Source: a bacterium
GTDB taxonomy: Bacteria > Patescibacteriota > Gracilibacteria > UBA4473
Assembly: GCA_018648585.1 (NCBI GenBank)
Contig: JABGQW010000016.1
Coordinates: forward strand, 22,483-86,482
Reading direction: 5' to 3'
DNA length: 64,000 bases
The first letter of the stretch is position 1; every line of letters starts with the position of its first letter. A program made the translations under genes and the position numbers. This document shows, piece by piece, positions 10,300-20,457 of the stretch. Below the pieces are notes generated by a model. That model did not search any database, was not told where the DNA came from, and saw nothing but the letters and a program-made list of their open reading frames with translations.

Positions 10300-11145
10300 A
10301 TGCGCGCGATGAAAAATGAATTTGACGTTCAGTACCAAAATTTGTTGTCGGAGATTCTCTCGCACGGTTTTGAAGAAAAAAATCTCCGCACCGGACACGT
10401 CTGCAAATCGCTTCCTGGACAGACGATGCGGTTCGATTTGGAAAAAGGATTTCCGCTGCTCGCGCTGCGAAAAATTCCGCTGAAAGTTTTTATCGCGGAA
10501 CAGGCTTGGTTTTTGATGGGAAATAAAAATCTGCGATTTTTGCAGGCGTTCACAAAAATCTGGGACGATTTTGCGGAAGAAAATAATTGCGTCGAATCGG
10601 CGTACGGGTACCGCTGGCGCAAACATTTTGGCCGCGACCAGATCGGCGGTTTGATCAAACTTTTGCAAAAAGATCCGACGAGCCGCCACGGCGTAATTTT
10701 GATGTGGGACCCGAGCGACGACGGGCTCGCCGACGGAATTCAGAAAAAAAACGTGCCGTGTCCGTACACGTTCACCGTTCAAATTATCGGCGGAAAATTG
10801 CACCTGCATTTGGTGATCCGCTCCAATGACATGATGCTCGGGAATCCGCACGATGTTGCAGGATTCGCGCTTTTGGCGCACATTTTGGCGGAAAAATTAA
10901 ATGTCGGCGTCGGAGTTCTCACGGTTTCGATTTCGAACGCGCACATTTACGACATCCATTTTGAGCAGGCAAAAGAAATTATTTCTCGGGGAATCGAGCA
11001 CGCGCCGATCAAATTTCAGTGCCCAAAAAATGCGTTTGTTCGCGCGGAGGAGGGCGACGAAAAACTCGTCGAGGAAATTTTTTCACAACTCCGAGAAAAT
11101 TACGCGCCGCAGGAATCGCTTGGGAAAATGTCGATTGTTTTGTGA
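10300..11145 (+). CDS. thyA: Thymidylate synthase / dCMP hydroxymethylase superfamily protein (start may be 10309)
   Basis: SRHGVILMWDPSDD, VPCPYTFTVQI (catalytic Cys), RSNDMMLGNPHDVAGFALL, NAHIYDIHFEQA. Confidence 0.85.
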   Translation: MRAMKNEFDVQYQNLLSEILSHGFEEKNLRTGHVCKSLPGQTMRFDLEKGFPLLALRKIPLKVFIAEQAWFLMGNKNLRFLQAFTKIWDDFAEENNCVESAYGYRWRKHFGRDQIGGLIKLLQKDPTSRHGVILMWDPSDDGLADGIQKKNVPCPYTFTVQIIGGKLHLHLVIRSNDMMLGNPHDVAGFALLAHILAEKLNVGVGVLTVSISNAHIYDIHFEQAKEIISRGIEHAPIKFQCPKNAFVRAEEGDEKLVEEIFSQLRENYAPQESLGKMSIVL

Positions 11146-11351
11146 TGCGAATTTTAACGGTGGAACTTATTCCGCCGATCGAGGAATTCATTCCTCGATT
11201 AAAAAACACCGAGCAGCGTTTGTTCGTGCGGTTTTTTGTAAAAAGTTGCGGGGAAATCAAGTTTTTGGAAAAACTCGTCGAGGAAATTTTTGCCCAACTC
11301 CGAGAAAATTACGCGCCGCAGGAATCGCTTGGGAAGATGTCGATTGTTTTG
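11059..11351 (+). repeat. Direct duplication of the thyA 3' end (11059-11142 and 11268-11351)
   Basis: 84-nt copies, about 81/84 identical by eye; both encode EKLVEEIF(S/A)QLRENYAPQESLGKMSIVL. Confidence 0.95.
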
Positions 11352-11354
11352 TAA
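11145..11354 (+). CDS. Small ORF ending in the duplicated ThyA tail
   Basis: ATG overlaps thyA TGA (tgatg); MRILTVELIPP...KLVEEIFAQLRENYAPQESLGKMSIVL; may be duplication debris. Confidence 0.35.
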   Translation: MRILTVELIPPIEEFIPRLKNTEQRLFVRFFVKSCGEIKFLEKLVEEIFAQLRENYAPQESLGKMSIVL

Positions 11355-11453
11355 AAAAGTTTGTATAATATGTGACAAAAAGAGCAAAATATGAAAATAC
11401 TTCGTATAAAAACCAGTTATACGCAATCAATTTTTACATTTTGATTTTGCTCC

Positions 11454-11500
11454 AGAGACTTTTTCTTTTTTTAGGAATAAGGAAAGAAAGTTTGATTTTC
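11454..11500. repeat. IR1 left arm flanking the EcoRII-like R-M module
   Basis: AGAGACTTTTTCTTTTTTT and AAGAAAGTTTGATTTTC are perfectly complementary to 14074-14092 and 14048-14064. Confidence 0.8.
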
Positions 11501-11638
11501 ATTTTTTAAGAGGGGGGGAAGCGGATATTTTTTACTCCATACTTCCGTAAAAAATGACTTTTAATTTAAAGTGGAAAAATTTAATGAAATTGTTATATTA
11601 TAGATGTAGGAATATTTAATTATTCAAAACCAAAAATT

Positions 11639-12739
11639 ATGAAATTTATAGATTTATTTGCAGGTATTGGAGGAATAAGACAAGCGTTTGATGCTATTGG
11701 TGGAGAATGTGTTTTTACGAGCGAATGGGATTTGGCTTGTCAAAAAACATATTCTGCAAATTATGGTTGTGATATTGATGAAATTGCAGGAGATATCACA
11801 AAAGTAGATGAAAAAGATATTCCAAAACACGATGTTCTTCTTGCCGGTTTTCCTTGTCAGCCTTTTTCTATTGCGGGAGTTTCAAAAAGAAACTCTTTAG
11901 GCTCTCCTCATGGTTTCTTGTGTGGAATGCAAGGAACTTTATTTTTTGATGTTGCAAGAATTATTGCTCACCATAGACCAAAAGCATTTTTGCTTGAAAA
12001 TGTAAAAAATCTTATAAGCCATGATAAGGGAAATACATTTAAGGTAATTATGAAAACATTACAGGAAGATCTTGGCTATCATGTACAATTTAAAGTTATA
12101 AACGGAAAAGGGTGGGTTCCTCAAAATAGACAAAGGATTTACATTGTAGGATTTAGAGAAAAAAACGACTTTAATTTTGACGATATAGAAACATTTGATG
12201 CAGAAAAAGGTCCAAAATTAAATTCTATATTACACTCAGAAAATGAGGTTATTGAAGAACCCTTTACTGTAAATTCAAAAGATAAAACAAAGCCTAATGA
12301 TAAATATACTTTATCTCCAAAGCTTTGGAAATACTTACAAGGTTATGCTGAAAAACATAGAAAAAAAGGAAATGGTTTTGGTTTTGGATTAAATGATGGA
12401 AATGACACAGCAAGAACTTTATCTGCAAGATATTACAAAGATGGTTCAGAAATACTTATAAAACAAAAAAAAGGAAATCCAAGAAGACTTACCCCTAGAG
12501 AATGTGCAAGGTTAATGGGATTTGATGATAATTTTAAAATTGTTGTTTCTGATACTCAAGCATATAAACAATTTGGTAATTCTGTTGTAGTCCCCGTATT
12601 AAAAGCTGTCGCAAAACATATGGAGTCTTGGATAAAAGATAAAAACAATAAAAAAAGAGTTCCGAAAAAAACAAGAAAAATAATGAGTAAACGTTTTCAG
12701 AGTGTTGAAAATAAAACTCCTTTAGAATTAACTGTATAA
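11639..12739 (+). CDS. DNA (cytosine-5-)-methyltransferase (Dcm/M.EcoRII-like)
   Basis: [54 protein letters not shown]. Confidence 0.97.
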
Positions 12740-12742
12740 ACT

Positions 12743-13987
12743 ATGAAAAAAGGTTTCCTCTCTTCGTATTTTGATGAAATAGCTATAAAAAGGCTGTCTT
12801 CTGTTGAGGTTGATCCAAAAATATCAAATCAACATGAAATAAATGGAGTAAAAGAGTTAATAAAAATGTTTGGAAAAGCTGGGGCAGAAAAAAAGAAAAT
12901 CAAGACAAATTTTCTTTATGTTTCAAATAACGAAGGAGAATATGAAAGTGCAAATGATCTTATAACTTGGTATGACTCAAGATATAATAATCCAAAAAGA
13001 ACAGAGCATAGACTGTATTATCCAAGTAATGATGTTACTAGAAAGTTTTCAGAAAATGATATTTTAGTGATAGCAAAGCAATCAAATGGAGAGGTTTTAT
13101 TTCTTGCGGTAGAAAAAGGTTCTAATTTAGAAAATCAGATACTATGGCTTTTTGATTCTGAAAAAGTTTCAAATCAATTCCAAGTAAAAGATATTGTTCA
13201 TGATGATAAAAAACTAGATTTTGCAACACGCTTTATTCTTGAAGAGATTGGAATACAAATAAAAGATATAAATGAAGATTTCCTAGAAATCATGATAAAT
13301 AAATTTAATGGAAACTTACCAACTACAAAAATATTTTCAGAGTTTGCAAGAAGTACAATAACAGTATCAGAAATTAAAAGTCCTGATGAAGCGATACTAA
13401 AATGGATGGAACAAGAAGAAATTCTATTTAGAACTTTTGAAAGACATTTAATTACAGAAAGATTAAAAAATGATAAAAGTAAAATTTTTGATGAAGATGG
13501 AAATGTTAAAGATGTAGATAGCTTTTTTCAATTCTCTTTATCTTTTCAAAACAGAAGAAAGGCAAGGGTTGGACTAGCATTGGAAAATCATTTAGAGCAA
13601 ATATTTTTATCAAATAATGTAGCCTATTCAAGAGGAGCAAAAACAGAAGGAAATTCTAAACCAGATTTTGTGTTCCCAAGTATCGATTATTATCACAACG
13701 AGAATAGTCAAAATGAACTATTAACAATGTTGGGTTCAAAATCTACTTGCAAAGATAGATGGAGACAAGTTTTAGCAGAAGCAAAGAAAATAGATAAAAA
13801 ACATTTGTTTACATTGGAGCCAAGTATAAGTGAAAATCAAACAAGCGAAATGCAAGAAAGATTATTGCAATTAGTAGTTCCTGAAGGACTTTTTAAGACA
13901 TACAATTCGAATCAACAAGGATGGTTAATGAATCTAAATGACTTTATTTCGCTAACAAAGAAAAGAGAATCAATGGCTATACGATAA
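12743..13987 (+). CDS. Type II restriction endonuclease, EcoRII C-terminal-like
   Basis: KPDFVFPSIDYY...LLTMLGSKSTCKDRWRQVLAEAKKI matches the EcoRII-C pattern; paired with the C5-MTase. Confidence 0.85.
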   Translation: MKKGFLSSYFDEIAIKRLSSVEVDPKISNQHEINGVKELIKMFGKAGAEKKKIKTNFLYVSNNEGEYESANDLITWYDSRYNNPKRTEHRLYYPSNDVTRKFSENDILVIAKQSNGEVLFLAVEKGSNLENQILWLFDSEKVSNQFQVKDIVHDDKKLDFATRFILEEIGIQIKDINEDFLEIMINKFNGNLPTTKIFSEFARSTITVSEIKSPDEAILKWMEQEEILFRTFERHLITERLKNDKSKIFDEDGNVKDVDSFFQFSLSFQNRRKARVGLALENHLEQIFLSNNVAYSRGAKTEGNSKPDFVFPSIDYYHNENSQNELLTMLGSKSTCKDRWRQVLAEAKKIDKKHLFTLEPSISENQTSEMQERLLQLVVPEGLFKTYNSNQQGWLMNLNDFISLTKKRESMAIR

Positions 13988-13998
13988 AACAATAAGGA

Positions 13999-14047
13999 GT
14001 TTCAAAAATTCCAATTCACCCCCGACCCCTCTTGGAATTTTCGAAAC
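13999..14047 (+). repeat. Hairpin with C-rich loop (copy 1)
   Basis: GTTTCAAAAATTCCAA / TTGGAATTTTCGAAAC around loop TTCACCCCCGACCCCTC. Confidence 0.85.
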
Positions 14048-14092
14048 GAAAATCAAACTTTCTTAAAAAATGAAAAAAAAGAAAAAGTCTCT
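14048..14092. repeat. IR1 right arm
   Basis: GAAAATCAAACTTTCTT and AAAAAAAGAAAAAGTCTCT, reverse complements of 11454-11500 blocks. Confidence 0.8.
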
Positions 14093-14184
14093 TACGCAAG
14101 AAGAATAAGGAAAAAATTGACTCACTCCGCTATCGCTCCGTGCCACATTGCATTCTCGTTTCGCTATGCTACACTCGGGGCGTA

Positions 14185-14292
14185 TAACACAGTATATCTG
14201 GTTCGCTCGTGCCCTCGCTCGACCCATATTTGCCAAAAAATAATTGATTTTAAAGGAATTTTGGCAAACATCAGATATACTGGAACGTTAGC
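14185..14292 (+). other. attC-like folded recombination element (copy 1) or structured RNA
   Basis: TAAC...GTTA outer boxes; CAGTATATCTG/CAGATATACTG 11-bp stem; TTTGCCAAAA/TTTTGGCAAA inner stem; shares ACCCATATTTGCCA, TGGCAAACATC and GGAACGTTAG with the 20237 element. Confidence 0.6.
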
Positions 14293-14298
14293 TGAAAT

Positions 14299-14359
14299 AT
14301 TCCTTTTCTTTTCTGGGCTATCGCCCAATTGTTTTAAAAAATTTTCAAATTTCTTTTTC
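14299..14359. repeat. IR2 left arm flanking the R-M-S/DUF6119 module
   Basis: ATTCCTTTTCTTTTC...GTTTTAAAAAATTTTCAAATTTCTTTTTC matches the reverse complement of 20173-20229. Confidence 0.85.
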
Positions 14360-14460
14360 TTTTTTTATAAGGGGAAATATGGTGTTTCCTCCGCTCCGCT
14401 ACGGAAACGATTTATTTGATGAGGGGGGGGGCTGTCTGGCTCTCGCCAGCCAGTTCGGAT

Positions 14461-14491
14461 GTTTTCTCCGCTTCGCTCCGAAAACTTTTTT
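14461..14491 (+). terminator. Terminator-like hairpin upstream of the R-M-S gene
   Basis: GTTTTC TCCGCTTCGCTCC GAAAAC then TTTTTT. Confidence 0.45.
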
Positions 14492-14554
14492 AGAATTATT
14501 CAATTTACTGTATTTTTGGTATAATCCATACAAGTAAGTAACCATGCCCTACAT

Positions 14555-17500
14555 ATGCCTAATAAACAATTTCTACAAAAAATAGGCTTTCTTCCAAAAG
14601 AGGGCACATTGGGTATTTTTCATAAAAATTACTCATCTTATGTCATTCAAGTCAACCTTGAAAATAACACCATAAATTATGGTGGTGATATTGTATTTAA
14701 CAATACAAAAAATACCGTTCAAAATATTACAAAAGCCGAGGATTGGGTAGTACTTGAATGTATAGATAGGCTATTACTGCAAGGCTACATCGCAAAGGAT
14801 ATAGTTTTAGAAAAAATATACCCGACTGGACATGGAACAAGTGGAAGACTGGACATTTTAGTTAAAAAAAATGGCAAAGCATTTTTAATGATTGAATGTA
14901 AAACATGGGGTAAAGAATTTGATAAAGAATTTCAAAAAATCCAAAAAGATGGCGGGCAACTATTTACATACTTTCAGCAGGATCGAGATGCTGAATACTT
15001 AGTTCTTTACACATCTGAACTTGAGAGCGAAATAAAATACAAAAACGAGATTATAAAGATTGAAGAATCGTACCGTGAAACAAGCAATGTCAAAGATCTT
15101 TTCGAGAGGTGGAGTAAATTCACAAAACAAAACGGTATTTTTGACGATTGGGTTAATCCTTATGAATTTAAAAGTAAGGCATTAACTCTTTCTCAACTCA
15201 AACCAATTACACAAAAGGATAGTAGCTTTATTTTTAATAGATTTTTGGAAATTTTGAGACACAATGTAGTTTCAGACAAACCAAATGCCTTCAATAAAAT
15301 TTTTACGCTATTCCTTTGTAAAATTATTGATGAAAACAGAAAGCCAGAAGACGAACTTGAATTTCAATGGATTGAAGGAGTAGACGATGATGTTACTTTT
15401 CAAAAAAGACTTACCGATCTCTACAAGAAGGGTATGTTGGAGCTTCTTTCAAAAGAAGTCACAGATTTGAGTGATGATGAATTTAACCGCAAATTTGGAG
15501 GGATAGATGAGACGGTAAGGAATGAGATTTTGAAAGAATTTACCGCTATTCGTTTACAAAAGAACAACGAATTTGCAATCAAGGAAGTTTTTGACAAAGA
15601 AACCTTTACCGAAAACGCAAAAGTTCTCAAAGAGGTTGTAGAGCTTTTACAGGAATTTAAAATTCGTTATACAGAAAAACAACAATATTTGAGTGATTTT
15701 TTTGAATTGCTACTAACTACTGGGTTAAAGCAGGAATCTGGACAATTTTTCACGCCAGTTCCTATCGCTAGATTTATTTGTCGCAGCATTCCCCTCAACA
15801 AGATTGTGAAAGACAAGTTAAAAATTGGAAATGCGAATGATTTAGTTCCAACAATAATTGATTATGCTGCTGGAAGTGGCCATTTCTTGACAGAATCAAT
15901 GGATGAAGTACAAAAAATTATTGACCAAATAGATGAAGAAAAATTATTACCACAAGTAAAAAGAAAGATTAAGGGTTGGAAGGAAGACCAGTTCGATTGG
16001 GCTTATGATTATGTTTATGGAATAGAAAAAGATTATCGCTTGGTAAAAACGGCAAAAGTTGGTTGCTATCTTCATGGTGACGGACTGGCTAAAGTAATAC
16101 ATGGCGATGGCCTGGGTAGTTTTGAATTTTCAAAAGAATATAAAGATAAGCTAAAAATTTGCGACAAAGACTTCTCTCAAGATAACAAACAATTTGATTT
16201 AGTAATTTCAAATCCGCCATATTCTGTTTCAGCTTTTAAAGCCAATCTTAAAAAAGAGTTTGCTGAGCAAGATTTTGAACTTTATAAGCGCCTTACAGAT
16301 CAAAGCTCCGAGATAGAGTCATTGTTCATTGAACGAACAAAGCAACTTCTCAAGGATGGTGGAATTGCGGCAATTATTTTGCCCGCAAGCATTCTAACTA
16401 ACGGCGGAATTTATACTCCAACAAGGGAAATTATCCTTAAATTTTTTGAAATTGTTGCTATTACTGAGCTTGGATCAAATACTTTTATGGCAACAGGGAC
16501 AAATACTGTCGTGCTATTTTTGCGCAAAAAAAATAACTATGAGTGGCAAAATATCAACACTGCTGTTGAGAGATTTTTTTCAAACTTAAAAGACGTAACT
16601 GTAAATGGAATTGAAAATATTTTCTCAAAATACGTTGCGCATGTCTGGGAAGGAATTACCTTTGAAGATTACAAAACTTTATGCGAAACAAATCCAAATA
16701 AACCAATTAAAGACCATGAAATTTTTGTTGAGTACTCCAAAAAACTAAAATTCAAAGACGAAAAAAGTCTTTTTAATCAAATTATAAACATAGAAAAAGA
16801 TAAAATTCTCTATTTCATTCTGGCATATTCACAAAAAACTGTATTAGTAAAGTCAGATAGTAAAAAAACAGAAAAGGCTTTTTTAGGCTATGAATTTAGT
16901 AATCGTAGAGGCAATGAGGGAATTCACTCCGTAAAAAAAGGAAAGAGCATTGATGAATGTACAAAGCTTTTTGACCCAAGTACACAAGAAAACCCCCAAA
17001 AAGCCAGTACTTATATTCTTCAAGCTTTTAGTGGAGAATTTGAAACAGATATTGATGACTCGCTAAATAAACATATTTCACGAATCAAGCTACTTGACGC
17101 CCTTACTTTTGATCGAGCAGATTTTGATAAATCTATTTCTTTGAGTCTAAAAAAAAAGATTAAATTTGAAAGTAAATGGGAGCTAGTTAAGCTAGGAACC
17201 ATTGCATCATTTAATCCTTCAAAAAGTGCTGTTAGCAAACTATCAGAAAATTTAACTGTCTCTTTTATTGAAATGGCATCTGTAAGTAATAATGGGTACA
17301 TAGTAAAGAAAGTAGATAAAAAATTAAAAGAAGTTAGAAGAGGAAGTTATAAATTTTTTAAAGATGATGATATTTTGATAGCAAAAATTACTCCGTGTAT
17401 GGAGAATGGTAAGTGTGCAATTGCATCAAATTTGACAAATGAAATCGGTTTTGGAAGTTCTGAATTCCATGTAATAACCCCAAATAAAACAATTCTTCCA

Positions 17501-18277
17501 AAGTATTTATTTGCAATGCTGAATCGTGACCTAATACGTAGAGCTGCAGAAACAAACATGACAGGATCTAGTGGCCACAGGAGAGTTCCTGAATCTTTTT
17601 ATAGTGAACTTAGATTACCTCGACCACCAAAAGACATCCAAAGCAAAATTGTGAAAGAAATTGAAACTTTAGAGGTGGAACAAAATAAAGGAGACATAAA
17701 AATACAAGATTTAAAAGGTAAAATCGAAGATTTATTTAAAAACATCTCTTTAAAGGCAAATACTACTTACAGACTAAGTGATAATGGCATTTTTGATATT
17801 TCTATCGGAAAAAGAGTCTTAAATAGTGAATTATCATCCCAAGGAAAAATACCTGTTTATAGTGCAAATGTTTTTACGCCTTTTGGGTTTGTAGAAAAAT
17901 TACTTATTCAAGATTTTACCATTCCCTCAGTTTTATGGGGCATAGATGGAGACTGGATGGTTAATTTTATGCCCGAAGACAAGGTATTTTATCCAACAGA
18001 TCATTGCGGAGTATTAAGAATTAAAGATGACAGCAAAGTAAATGCAAAATATTTAGCATACGTATTGCAAAAAGAAGGCGAGGATCTGAAATTTTCAAGA
18101 GCAAAACGTGCTTCTATTGATAGAATTCAGGGAATTAAAATTCAAGCACCTGCCATTGAGGAACAGCAAAAAGCCATTTCTGAAATAGAAAAAATAGAAA
18201 CTGAAATCGCGAAGCTAGAAAGTAGGTTATCAGAAATTCCAAAACAAAAAGAAGCAATTCTGAATAAGTATTTATAG
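14555..18277 (+). CDS. Single-chain restriction-modification-specificity protein (PD-(D/E)XK nuclease + N6-adenine MTase + type I-like S domain)
   Basis: GRLDILVKKNGKAFLMIECK; motif I DYAAGSGHFLTESM; motif IV SNPPYSV; two TRD-like segments separated by coiled-coil-like helices. Confidence 0.9.
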   Translation: MPNKQFLQKIGFLPKEGTLGIFHKNYSSYVIQVNLENNTINYGGDIVFNNTKNTVQNITKAEDWVVLECIDRLLLQGYIAKDIVLEKIYPTGHGTSGRLDILVKKNGKAFLMIECKTWGKEFDKEFQKIQKDGGQLFTYFQQDRDAEYLVLYTSELESEIKYKNEIIKIEESYRETSNVKDLFERWSKFTKQNGIFDDWVNPYEFKSKALTLSQLKPITQKDSSFIFNRFLEILRHNVVSDKPNAFNKIFTLFLCKIIDENRKPEDELEFQWIEGVDDDVTFQKRLTDLYKKGMLELLSKEVTDLSDDEFNRKFGGIDETVRNEILKEFTAIRLQKNNEFAIKEVFDKETFTENAKVLKEVVELLQEFKIRYTEKQQYLSDFFELLLTTGLKQESGQFFTPVPIARFICRSIPLNKIVKDKLKIGNANDLVPTIIDYAAGSGHFLTESMDEVQKIIDQIDEEKLLPQVKRKIKGWKEDQFDWAYDYVYGIEKDYRLVKTAKVGCYLHGDGLAKVIHGDGLGSFEFSKEYKDKLKICDKDFSQDNKQFDLVISNPPYSVSAFKANLKKEFAEQDFELYKRLTDQSSEIESLFIERTKQLLKDGGIAAIILPASILTNGGIYTPTREIILKFFEIVAITELGSNTFMATGTNTVVLFLRKKNNYEWQNINTAVERFFSNLKDVTVNGIENIFSKYVAHVWEGITFEDYKTLCETNPNKPIKDHEIFVEYSKKLKFKDEKSLFNQIINIEKDKILYFILAYSQKTVLVKSDSKKTEKAFLGYEFSNRRGNEGIHSVKKGKSIDECTKLFDPSTQENPQKASTYILQAFSGEFETDIDDSLNKHISRIKLLDALTFDRADFDKSISLSLKKKIKFESKWELVKLGTIASFNPSKSAVSKLSENLTVSFIEMASVSNNGYIVKKVDKKLKEVRRGSYKFFKDDDILIAKITPCMENGKCAIASNLTNEIGFGSSEFHVITPNKTILPKYLFAMLNRDLIRRAAETNMTGSSGHRRVPESFYSELRLPRPPKDIQSKIVKEIETLEVEQNKGDIKIQDLKGKIEDLFKNISLKANTTYRLSDNGIFDISIGKRVLNSELSSQGKIPVYSANVFTPFGFVEKLLIQDFTIPSVLWGIDGDWMVNFMPEDKVFYPTDHCGVLRIKDDSKVNAKYLAYVLQKEGEDLKFSRAKRASIDRIQGIKIQAPAIEEQQKAISEIEKIETEIAKLESRLSEIPKQKEAILNKYL

Positions 18278-18281
18278 CCCC

Positions 18282-20051
18282 ATGGAAGAAGAAAAAATAC
18301 AGATAGGCATATATCAGATAGCTTTAGATAGCGATATATTTCAGGATGAGAATAAACTCGATACTTTAGCTCAAACAATCGAGTCCAAAGGCTATACAAA
18401 ACAAGAAATATCAGAAGAAATTGATGGATTTTCTCTGAAGCTATTTTACGGAGTGAAGCCACAAAATCCAAAATGGAAGAAGTTTTTGTCGCAAGTAGTT
18501 ACAGACAATCAACCCATATCAGAAGCAAATAAATCATGGACAGAAAGTTTTGTTTTGCTAGCCCAAAATGAAAAAAATATTTACGCCGTGACTGGTGGCT
18601 TGGGCTTTTTTATTATTCAGGACTATATAAATCAAGATTTCGGAATAGACGTTATTTCACGCCTCATAAAAAAGGAGGATAAAATTATTAAAGCAACTAA
18701 AGAAAAAAGTGTCGTTGGTGGCGTGTTAGGTTCAAGTAAGAACTTTAGAAAAAATTACAATCTTTTCGAGAGCGATAGCTTCGGAAAAATCTATCAAGAA
18801 CTAAAAGCAAATCTTGATAAAGGAATACTGCAATCCAAATTTGGCTTCGGTCAAGATGATCTGAAGAAAGACTCATTCTGCATAGCAAAAACCTCTTTCA
18901 GGATAAATAAATCAATTACATTCGAACAACTATTTGAAATAATAAAAGGCTGTGAATATTTGATCGATAATGTTGATGCGATTGCAATAAATAACGTTGA
19001 AAAGATAGTTAAGAAAAAGAACCAAACACTAATCAGTAATCTTGAAAATGAATTATTTAGTCAGCTTTGGAAACGCCATCAAAATCCAGAAGATTACAAT
19101 ATAGATTTTGATCTGTGTCACAAAGAATTTGAAAAATACCTTACTGCAAGCAAATACATTGTCAAAAAAAATCTATCTAATAAAAATTTCTTCGATGATT
19201 TTGTGTTTGAAGAATTAGACAATGTAGATTTGCTCTTCTCGAAAATCAAGGAGCTAGAAGATAGTCCTGATAATGAACAGGGGCTTCGTGAGCTAATCTC
19301 ATCTTTGAAAATATATTCTTACGATGAAAATGACGAGGAATTAACACATGGGTGGTTACATCATCACATACACGGCGATGTTGAAATCGATGAAAAAAGA
19401 TACTTCTTTATTGATAAATCATGGTATCTCATTAAAGAAGAGTTCATTAATGAGCTAAATGAAGGCTGTAAGCATTTTATTTCAGAACATACGAACGAAG
19501 GACTCACAAATAAATGGGACTATCCAACCCAAAAAGAAAACGACTACAATCAGACCTATTTTGACCAGGAAAACACATTAGTTATTGACAAGATTACTCC
19601 CGAAAATATTGAACCTTGTGACATTTTAAAATGGGATGATGAAACTGTGTTCTTTTACCACGTAAAGGCAGGTTTTGGAAATACAATGCGCGACCTTTGC
19701 TCACAAATAATCATTGCGGCCAACAGAATAAACGGAAGTAAATTGGGCGATAAAAAATATCTGAAGAAAATCTATAAACAGATGAAAGATAAATCTAGTA
19801 GCAGTGATGAATACTACAAAAAAGTTGCAAAACAAACAGACAGCTTAACGGAAGACCAATTTTTGTCACTTTTCGATAAACATTTGATATTTGTACTAGC
19901 AGTTTTAGACACTGCGACAAATGAACGTAGCCTAAGTGAAATAGAAAAATTCAAATCAAATATTGCAAAGTTTTCTCTGCAAGAACTTTACAAAGAAATG
20001 AGGAGTATCGATGTTGCATTAGAAATCATACAGATTAAAAAGGTAAATTAA
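18282..20051 (+). CDS. DUF6119 / TIGR04141-like sporadically distributed protein associated with the R-M gene
   Basis: IEPCDILKWDDETVFFYHVKAGFGNTMRDLCSQIIIAANRI resembles the DUF6119 (D...HVK...) core; 4-nt gap to the R-M-S gene. Confidence 0.65.
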   Translation: MEEEKIQIGIYQIALDSDIFQDENKLDTLAQTIESKGYTKQEISEEIDGFSLKLFYGVKPQNPKWKKFLSQVVTDNQPISEANKSWTESFVLLAQNEKNIYAVTGGLGFFIIQDYINQDFGIDVISRLIKKEDKIIKATKEKSVVGGVLGSSKNFRKNYNLFESDSFGKIYQELKANLDKGILQSKFGFGQDDLKKDSFCIAKTSFRINKSITFEQLFEIIKGCEYLIDNVDAIAINNVEKIVKKKNQTLISNLENELFSQLWKRHQNPEDYNIDFDLCHKEFEKYLTASKYIVKKNLSNKNFFDDFVFEELDNVDLLFSKIKELEDSPDNEQGLRELISSLKIYSYDENDEELTHGWLHHHIHGDVEIDEKRYFFIDKSWYLIKEEFINELNEGCKHFISEHTNEGLTNKWDYPTQKENDYNQTYFDQENTLVIDKITPENIEPCDILKWDDETVFFYHVKAGFGNTMRDLCSQIIIAANRINGSKLGDKKYLKKIYKQMKDKSSSSDEYYKKVAKQTDSLTEDQFLSLFDKHLIFVLAVLDTATNERSLSEIEKFKSNIAKFSLQELYKEMRSIDVALEIIQIKKVN

Positions 20052-20054
20052 GAA

Positions 20055-20105
20055 GTTTGAGGGAGGGGCAATTCACCCCCAACCCCTCTTGCCCCTCCCT
20101 CAAAC
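20055..20105 (+). repeat. Hairpin with C-rich loop (copy 2)
   Basis: GTTTGAGGGAGGGGCAA / TTGCCCCTCCCTCAAAC perfect 17-bp stem, loop TTCACCCCCAACCCCTC. Confidence 0.95.
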
Positions 20106-20116
20106 CAGAAATAGGT

Positions 20117-20171
20117 GTTTTGGGTGGCGGGCATTCACCCCTTTAATTCCCCTCTGCCCACCACCCAAAAC
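20117..20171 (+). repeat. Hairpin with C-rich loop (copy 3)
   Basis: GTTTTGGGTGGCGGGCA / TGCCCACCACCCAAAAC (one mismatch), loop TTCACCCCTTTAATTCCCCTC. Confidence 0.9.
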
Positions 20172-20172
20172 G

Positions 20173-20229
20173 GAAAAAGAAATTTGAAAATTTTTAAAAC
20201 AAACGACTATCGTCGAAAAGAAAAAGAAT
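20173..20229. repeat. IR2 right arm
   Basis: GAAAAAGAAATTTGAAAATTTTTAAAAC...GAAAAGAAAAAGAAT, near-perfect reverse complement of 14299-14359. Confidence 0.85.
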
Positions 20230-20236
20230 ACATCAG

Positions 20237-20361
20237 CTAACACTGCGTATGCGGTTACGGCTTGCTCCGTACCTCCGCAAGCCTCCACCCATATTTGCCA
20301 GTGGTAAGCACTTCGTGCAATTATACCACTGGCAAACATCGCATACGCAGGAACGTTAGGC
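20237..20361 (+). other. attC-like folded recombination element (copy 2) or structured RNA
   Basis: CTAAC...GTTAGGC boxes; CTGCGTATGCG/CGCATACGCAG; GGCTTGC/GCAAGCC; TTTGCCAGTGGTA/TACCACTGGCAAA. Confidence 0.65.
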
Positions 20362-20457
20362 GACAAATTTTTCAATTATTTTTCGCGAATGATCGTATTT
20401 CTGATCGTGTCGCAAAACTCAAAATACACGCATTTTTTCAAATTGTGTTTTGATTTT

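Follow-up and report, generated by a model that had tools for sequence, protein, structure and literature searches.

Probable attC-type recombination sites and integron-like cassette arrays in Patescibacteria

Introduction

Integrons are the best-known bacterial gene-capture machines. A stretch of 64,000 nucleotides from a gracilibacterial genome (assembly GCA_018648585.1, contig JABGQW010000016.1, positions 22,483 to 86,482; hereafter "the window") raises the question of whether such machines also exist in the ultra-small Patescibacteria. Two elements of this stretch, at 14185-14292 and 20237-20361, had been described from the letters alone as homologous folds under structural selection, with a core resembling that of attC, the recombination site of integron cassettes. 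Patescibacteria are missing from the integron phylum lists in PMC8618304, a 2026 review of the group does not mention integrons (PMC13293708), and we found no description of integrons in Patescibacteria in the open-access literature, which is not proof of absence. Here we report that each of the two elements very probably closes a mobile cassette as an attC-type recombination site, belonging to a gene-capture system of the integron type, and that a widespread kind of integron in these bacteria has apparently remained undescribed so far. Structure, covariation, strand bias, arrays, orientation, the link to an integrase, the complementarity of cassette starts and ends, and the sharing of cassette ends across families were all computed; strand cleavage, circles, the role of the inverted repeats and service in trans are what we infer.

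Results

Both elements lie where the original prediction placed them, and their shared and compensated segments match its description. Element 1 (14180-14295, minus strand) scores 108.3 bits and element 2 (20233-20363, minus strand) 125.4 bits with the covariance model introduced below, and both assignments draw also on single-stranded DNA folds and pair counts. In element 1 the R'' box occupies 14180-14188 and the R' box 14287-14295, and the outer stem pairs L'' (14190-14200) with L' (14272-14282; CAGTATATCTG/CAGATATACTG). The corresponding parts of element 2 are R'' TAAC at 20238-20241, R' at 20355-20363, and a stem of L'' (20243-20253) with L' (20340-20350; CTGCGTATGCG/CGCATACGCAG). The outer stems differ between the copies while each is complementary at 11 of 11 positions, exactly as had been claimed. 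An unpaired GAAC spacer separates L' from R' (14283-14286 and 20351-20354); the spacers measure 1 versus 4 nt, and in both window copies the 11-bp L stem is free of extrahelical bases. Modelled as single strands of DNA, the bottom strands fold at -21.4 kcal/mol (element 1) and -36.4 kcal/mol (element 2), with z scores of -5.6 and -7.3 against dinucleotide shuffles, and the top-strand folds are somewhat weaker (z = -3.8 and -6.3 against the same kind of shuffles).

Each element combines the L stem of 11 bp with an apical stem that stacks on it without a gap (14226-14234 with 14263-14271 in element 1) and a side hairpin (approximately 14201-14224 in element 1), and because of this side hairpin the predicted fold is a three-way junction. 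On the bottom strand, a conserved GGG patch precedes the side hairpin. The inner stem extends outward from TTTGCC/GGCAAA across a fixed A.C mismatch of the top strand; read on the bottom strand, this pair is a G.T wobble in 119 of 142 distinct copies. The original prediction had not included the side hairpin and this outward continuation. The terminal part of the site is predicted to be a conserved three-way junction, where canonical attC has a variable terminal structure. An Rfam search of the window returned only two tRNAs above the gathering score, leaving the elements without a match to any RNA family, and an exact-pattern scan for the element in viral contigs gave no match.

The claim that structure is under selection is supported by two-sided pair changes, first across six copies and then across 142 distinct ones. 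A model built from the two window copies was sequence-only and was not used further; the working structured covariance model was built from six copies. When these six were aligned with MAFFT, 11 of 33 pairs changed on both sides and 96.8% of cells paired, versus 0-3 pairs and 28-45% of cells when partners were slid by 1-3 columns. Among the 142 distinct copies, 29 of the 33 base pairs had changed on both sides and 94.8% of cells paired, with a covariation score of 0.556 versus 0.140 for shuffled and at most 0.064 for slid partners; because this larger alignment had been fitted to the model it is biased in the model's favour, but the slid controls collapse and the six founders aligned by MAFFT agree. 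The structure of the element is not due to chance. The covariance model and genome search that had been proposed as a check yielded hundreds more covarying copies, arranged in arrays adjoining a recombinase that resembles integron integrases. In addition, G.T pairs outnumber A.C pairs on the bottom strand by 82 to 25 (core and one fixed wobble excluded, p = 3e-8), which argues that the bottom strand is the folding strand, as in attC.

With the six-copy model, elements were detected in 6 of 20 genomes of the host family, in 122 of 353 genomes of the host class, and in 58 of 379 genomes (15%) from an even sampling of the phylum. Named relatives are Peregrinibacteria, Gracilibacteria, Moranbacteria and Magasanikbacteria; from these names, and from TGA codons read within the integrase genes of several families, we take the class to be Gracilibacteria in a broad sense, inside Patescibacteria. 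They tend to occur in arrays (145 matches in 54 loci), with up to 14 sites on the same strand at one locus. The 353 class genomes divide into 79 with both elements and the integrase, 43 with elements only, 28 with the integrase only and 203 with neither, a strong co-occurrence (odds ratio 13, p = 4e-24). Orientation is equally regular: in a sample of 40 elements from the 29 contigs listed with both element and integrase, the folded strand was the strand of the integrase gene in 40 of 40 cases, and the element lay 5' of that gene in 39 of 40.

If the elements are attC-type sites, the intervals between them should be cassettes with matching ends. Out of 101 intervals between neighbouring elements we kept the 91 that start with GTT, end with AAC and measure 200-8000 nt, most of them 300-1000 nt long. 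Positions 5-9 of a cassette's start agree with its own end at 90%, versus 55% with other ends and 57% with other ends of the same array. Past the core, a cassette's own two ends have a local inverted-repeat score of 20.3, versus 10.7 for mismatched ends (p = 1e-39); 39 of the 91 cassettes exceed the 99th percentile of mismatched pairs, and the best or tied-best partner is the cassette's own end for 54 of 91 starts. The consensus start, GTTRNNYGAAAT, and the reverse complement of the consensus end, GTTRNNYGATGT, share nine paired bases, a two-base internal loop and then the repeat. This complementarity of start and end is the integron signature, from which we propose that cassettes close as circles at a G^TT core and insert between two such cores. 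Predicted open reading frames (ORFs) mostly follow the cassette direction (98, with 22 opposite), and the 102 cassette proteins scanned match 100 Pfam families, including methylases, acetyltransferases, phosphotransferases and restriction enzymes. Cassette ends are common to different families of the class, and two genomes (G257 and G330) have a cassette in common that is 78% identical in its entirety. In one array (L098), cassettes 1 and 6 are both 505 nt long and 92% identical from end to end, which suggests that a cassette was duplicated or captured more than once.

The original comparison with attC holds up, with a correction to the core. GTT stands at all 91 starts, which were selected for it, and a pyrimidine at position 7 in 84 of 91, while a purine is found at position 5 in just 47 of 91 and at position 6 in 57 of 91. 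The core is accordingly GTTRNNYG and not the strict GTTRRRY that had been cited, and the cassette cores do not conform to the canonical pair of R' GTTRRRY and R'' RYYYAAC.

These observations also bear on whether the elements could be gene-end RNA structures or transcription terminators that play no part in recombination. The elements do follow genes and fold strongly, and terminators are the commonest stem-loops in such places. The wobble bias, however, favours the bottom strand, whereas the cassette ORFs run on the other one, and the TAAC/GTTA core together with the start/end complementarity spans the whole cassette, which a gene-end RNA would not need. Nor does a T run directly follow the structure, as expected after a GC-rich terminator hairpin: the top strand reads GAACGTTAGC in one copy and GAACGTTAGGC in the other. 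The elements moreover co-occur with one recombinase family and match no Rfam family. Given the bottom-strand bias, the ordered arrays and the paired cassette ends, a terminator-only explanation, which the original prediction had listed among its possible refutations, is disfavoured, and we regard any such RNA explanation as extremely unlikely.

In the window, attC-type sites would delimit two cassettes, and elements 1 and 2 each close what is by its predicted genes a restriction-modification unit. Cassette 1 (11417-14287, plus strand, 2871 bp; predicted cut points G11416^TT and G14287^TT) carries genes for a C5-cytosine DNA methylase (11639-12739, plus strand; Pfam PF00145, E = 2e-91) and an EcoRII-C type restriction endonuclease (12743-13987, plus strand; PF09019, E = 5e-63). 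Cassette 2 (14288-20355, plus strand, 6068 bp; predicted cut points G14287^TT and G20355^TT) carries a gene for a type IIG-like fused N6-methylase/specificity protein (14555-18277, plus strand; Pfam N6_Mtase, E = 1.5e-25, Methylase_S, E = 7e-20, and Eco57I, E = 2e-14) and one for a DUF6119 protein (18282-20051, plus strand; PF19614, E = 1e-34). The latter lies directly 3' of the methylase/specificity gene in the same cassette and is a possible defence partner.

Both cassettes obey the rule of matching ends. The start of cassette 1, GTTATACGC (11416-11424), is complementary to its end, GCGTATAAC (14180-14188), and that of cassette 2, GTTAGCTGA (from 14287), to TCAGCTAAC (to 20241; repeat pair I5). 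In cassette 2 the complementarity runs on as an imperfect inverted repeat of approximately 75 nt, with a 5' terminal repeat at 14287-14365 (plus strand; repeats I2, I3 and I5) and its partner at 20167-20241 (minus strand), which pair with each other in a modelled free circle. Such a circle would prolong the stem by tens of base pairs (-88 versus -52 kcal/mol for cassette 2, and -70 versus -55 kcal/mol for cassette 1). Across its final 313 nt, cassette 2 is 94.6% identical to a cassette end in G290, which belongs to another family.

Inverted repeats at both cassette ends, reaching about 75-100 nt, and a GAAC stretch next to a hairpin are also what one might look for at the ends of transposons, whether composite or passenger elements with terminal inverted repeats or elements with HUH-type hairpins (IS200/IS605, IS91 or Helitron-like). 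The Pfam scan found no transposase among the window cassette genes, and the geometry is different: the element lies outside the inverted repeat, occurs once per cassette, and stands in tandem arrays with shared half-sites. Every junction consists of a GTT core adjoining attI or another site, and the associated enzyme is a tyrosine recombinase. We therefore give transposon ends only the slightest probability.

The window cassettes are located between a thymidylate synthase gene and a VIT1 gene. In a genome of the same genus (G006) these two genes are near neighbours; cassettes are absent there, and the space between the genes holds a different short gene. An exact empty insertion site was not found in this genome, and because of the different short gene we take it to show the absence of cassettes and not a clean empty site.

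A putative attI-like site (11344-11415, plus strand), running from TTTGTATAA to ATGAAAATACTTCGTATAAAAACCA, immediately precedes G^TTATACG at 11416. It fits the stretch between the integrase gene and the first cassette in relatives, for example ATGAAAACATTTCGCATAAAAACGA^GTTAGGCG in L030, as well as L068 and L070. Many of the integrase loci examined have conserved TTCGnATAA repeats followed by ATAAAAACGA^GTT just before the first cassette, which we consider a putative attI. Just ahead of the window site, 85 nt of 3'-terminal thymidylate synthase sequence are duplicated (11059-11143 and 11268-11352, 96% identical); the duplication could be a trace of the array's arrival.

The source genome encodes two tyrosine recombinases, one Xer-like (L004) and one on another contig, C29 (G000:C29:11370-12188, minus strand). 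The best NCBIfam model for the C29 protein is TIGR02249, integron integrase (222.2 bits), and its best match of solved structure is VchIntIA (PDB 2a3v), in an alignment by phmmer that skips about 30 residues. R133, H222, R225, H248 and Y257 are invariant. The gene points away from a three-gene methylase cassette, and its contig ends in CCTAACACAGT; this end shares a 55-nt identical overlap with contig C10 inside a third site, of which C10 holds the complete element. This overlap gives the source genome one complete unit of integrase, putative attI, three-gene methylase cassette and site. Integrases 51-59% identical to this one lie 1-2 kb from elements in three other genomes of the family, and the cassettes there follow the same start/end rule. 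Integrase genes with many in-frame TGA codons were seen in several families of the class (G131, G091, G100, G099, G066, G052, G102, G123 and others), a pattern consistent with TGA being read as an amino acid.

Could this be an ordinary integron, built on IntI and canonical attC sites and as yet uncatalogued in Patescibacteria? The anatomy is the same: a divergent integrase, attI, R''/L''/L'/R' boxes with a G^TT core, one gene per cassette and a bottom strand predicted to be the folded one. The enzyme and the site are not. The KGxKDR and HxLRH motifs are spaced 58 residues apart in almost every Patescibacteria integrase measured, versus 99-101 in the IntI measured, and the additional domain of IntI, around patch III, is a gap in the integrase alignment; from the spacing and the gap we conclude that the additional domain is missing. 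A quick maximum-likelihood tree, for which no root was inferred, separates three supported groups: the Patescibacteria integrases, IntI and Xer (SH-aLRT 95, 100 and 99, respectively). The site, in turn, is marked by a conserved side hairpin and by fixed patches of single strand. An ordinary integron is therefore very unlikely.

Related integrases that lack the domain in Bacillota, Spirochaetota and Bacteroidota are also adjoined by matches to the model, though weaker ones. The Bacteroidota matches all share one strand and are located downstream of the integrase gene, and most of them lack a side hairpin; their covariation is clear (0.385 versus 0.115), and we treat it as a lead since the matches were selected by the model. 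Arrays resembling attC arrays stand beside domain-less integrases in Bacteroidota (L132, L134, L135, L141, L142, L146, L148, L162 and L163), Spirochaetota (L160) and Bacillota (L126).

A second, smaller structure accompanies the cassette ends. This companion hairpin has a variable complementary stem and a conserved loop, TTCACCCC..CCCCTCT, and the window contains one copy in cassette 1 (13999-14047, plus strand) and two further copies with the same fixed loop family (20055-20105 and 20117-20171, both plus strand). Among 28 such hairpins in the arrays and the window, 25 lie 79-432 nt (mostly 79-170 nt) ahead of an element in the same direction. The source genome has four exact matches to the loop, all at cassette ends, and there were none in the two searched genomes without detected elements. 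Further companion hairpins were seen in L005 (approximately 15206-15262) and in arrays L095-L106.

Discussion

Taken as attC-type sites, the elements suggest the following course of events. The C29 integrase, a tyrosine recombinase from the lineage of integron integrases, would most likely bind the folded bottom strand and cut between G and TT of GTTRNNYG, so that a cassette could be excised as a circle and inserted at attI (here 11344-11415) or at another such site. Within an array, only TAAC/GTTA would close the site, because each of its half-cores comes from a different cassette. Once a circle is free, the two ends of one cassette would meet, and the inverted repeats would add tens of base pairs to the hairpin stem; with this longer stem, extrusion and re-insertion should be favoured. 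The window array may be served in trans by the integrase, or it may have been left behind.

Several points weigh against this interpretation. The window array consists of an attI-like site and two restriction-modification cassettes, with no adjacent integrase. The C29 integrase scores below the TIGR02249 cut-off (222.2 versus 265 bits). Its lack of the additional domain also counts against an integron, given the stated need for it: the IntI-specific domain has been described as a defining trait that is necessary for integron recombination (PMC9668308). No integrase was detected in 43 of the 122 genomes with elements and no elements in 28 of the 107 with an integrase, for which fragmentation, TGA recoding, strict filters and thresholds may be responsible; most of the data are metagenome-assembled genomes. 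Of the 120 predicted cassette ORFs, 22 run opposite to the cassette, some of them surely spurious. Finally, recombination, circles and protein-DNA contact are all inferred.

A system present in about one third of the sampled class genomes would explain how bacteria with genomes of about 1 Mb acquire and exchange restriction-modification and other accessory genes. An integrase without the additional domain makes the requirements for recombining folded single-stranded DNA, and the origin of integrons, testable, and it would supply biotechnology with a compact recombinase and structured target sites. A bolder proposal, to which we assign an even chance, is that these loci represent a second, phylum-wide class of integron, with a domain-less integrase, single-stranded sites built as three-way junctions, long inverted repeats, and a full long-stem site that exists only in the free circle. 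The domain-less type would then be widespread, with similar sites in Bacteroidota (mostly lacking the side hairpin), Bacillota and Spirochaetota, and possibly ancestral to IntI integrons.

Among known systems, the closest in layout are the sedentary chromosomal integrons, such as the Vibrio cholerae superintegron. Judged by sequence anatomy, the system is integron-like, although not a textbook member by the strict definitions of IntI and GTTRRRY. As in sedentary integrons, there is a divergent tyrosine recombinase with attI between recombinase and array, and tandem, mostly one-gene cassettes of highly diverse cargo, with a G^TT core, a bottom strand predicted to be the folded one, and an unpaired spacer that sets the R and L boxes apart. 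Unlike them, the Patescibacteria integrase lacks the IntI additional domain, the site is a three-way junction with conserved loops, and the cassettes bear long inverted-repeat ends and a companion hairpin, with several large multigene restriction-modification cassettes among them. Archaeal integrons (Ghaly et al. 2022, PMC9668308) are similar in lying outside the usual proteobacterial hosts, in coming from metagenome genomes and in including many arrays without an integrase; they were recognized by standard criteria, however, and according to that paper their IntI has the additional domain and their attC folds as it does in bacteria, and the domain is absent from the Patescibacteria integrase. 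The recombinases XerA, XerC and XerD (PDB 5hxy, 4a8e and 1a0p) belong to the same protein family and are of similar length, but the Xer-type recombinase of the source genome is a separate gene, in a separate supported clade.

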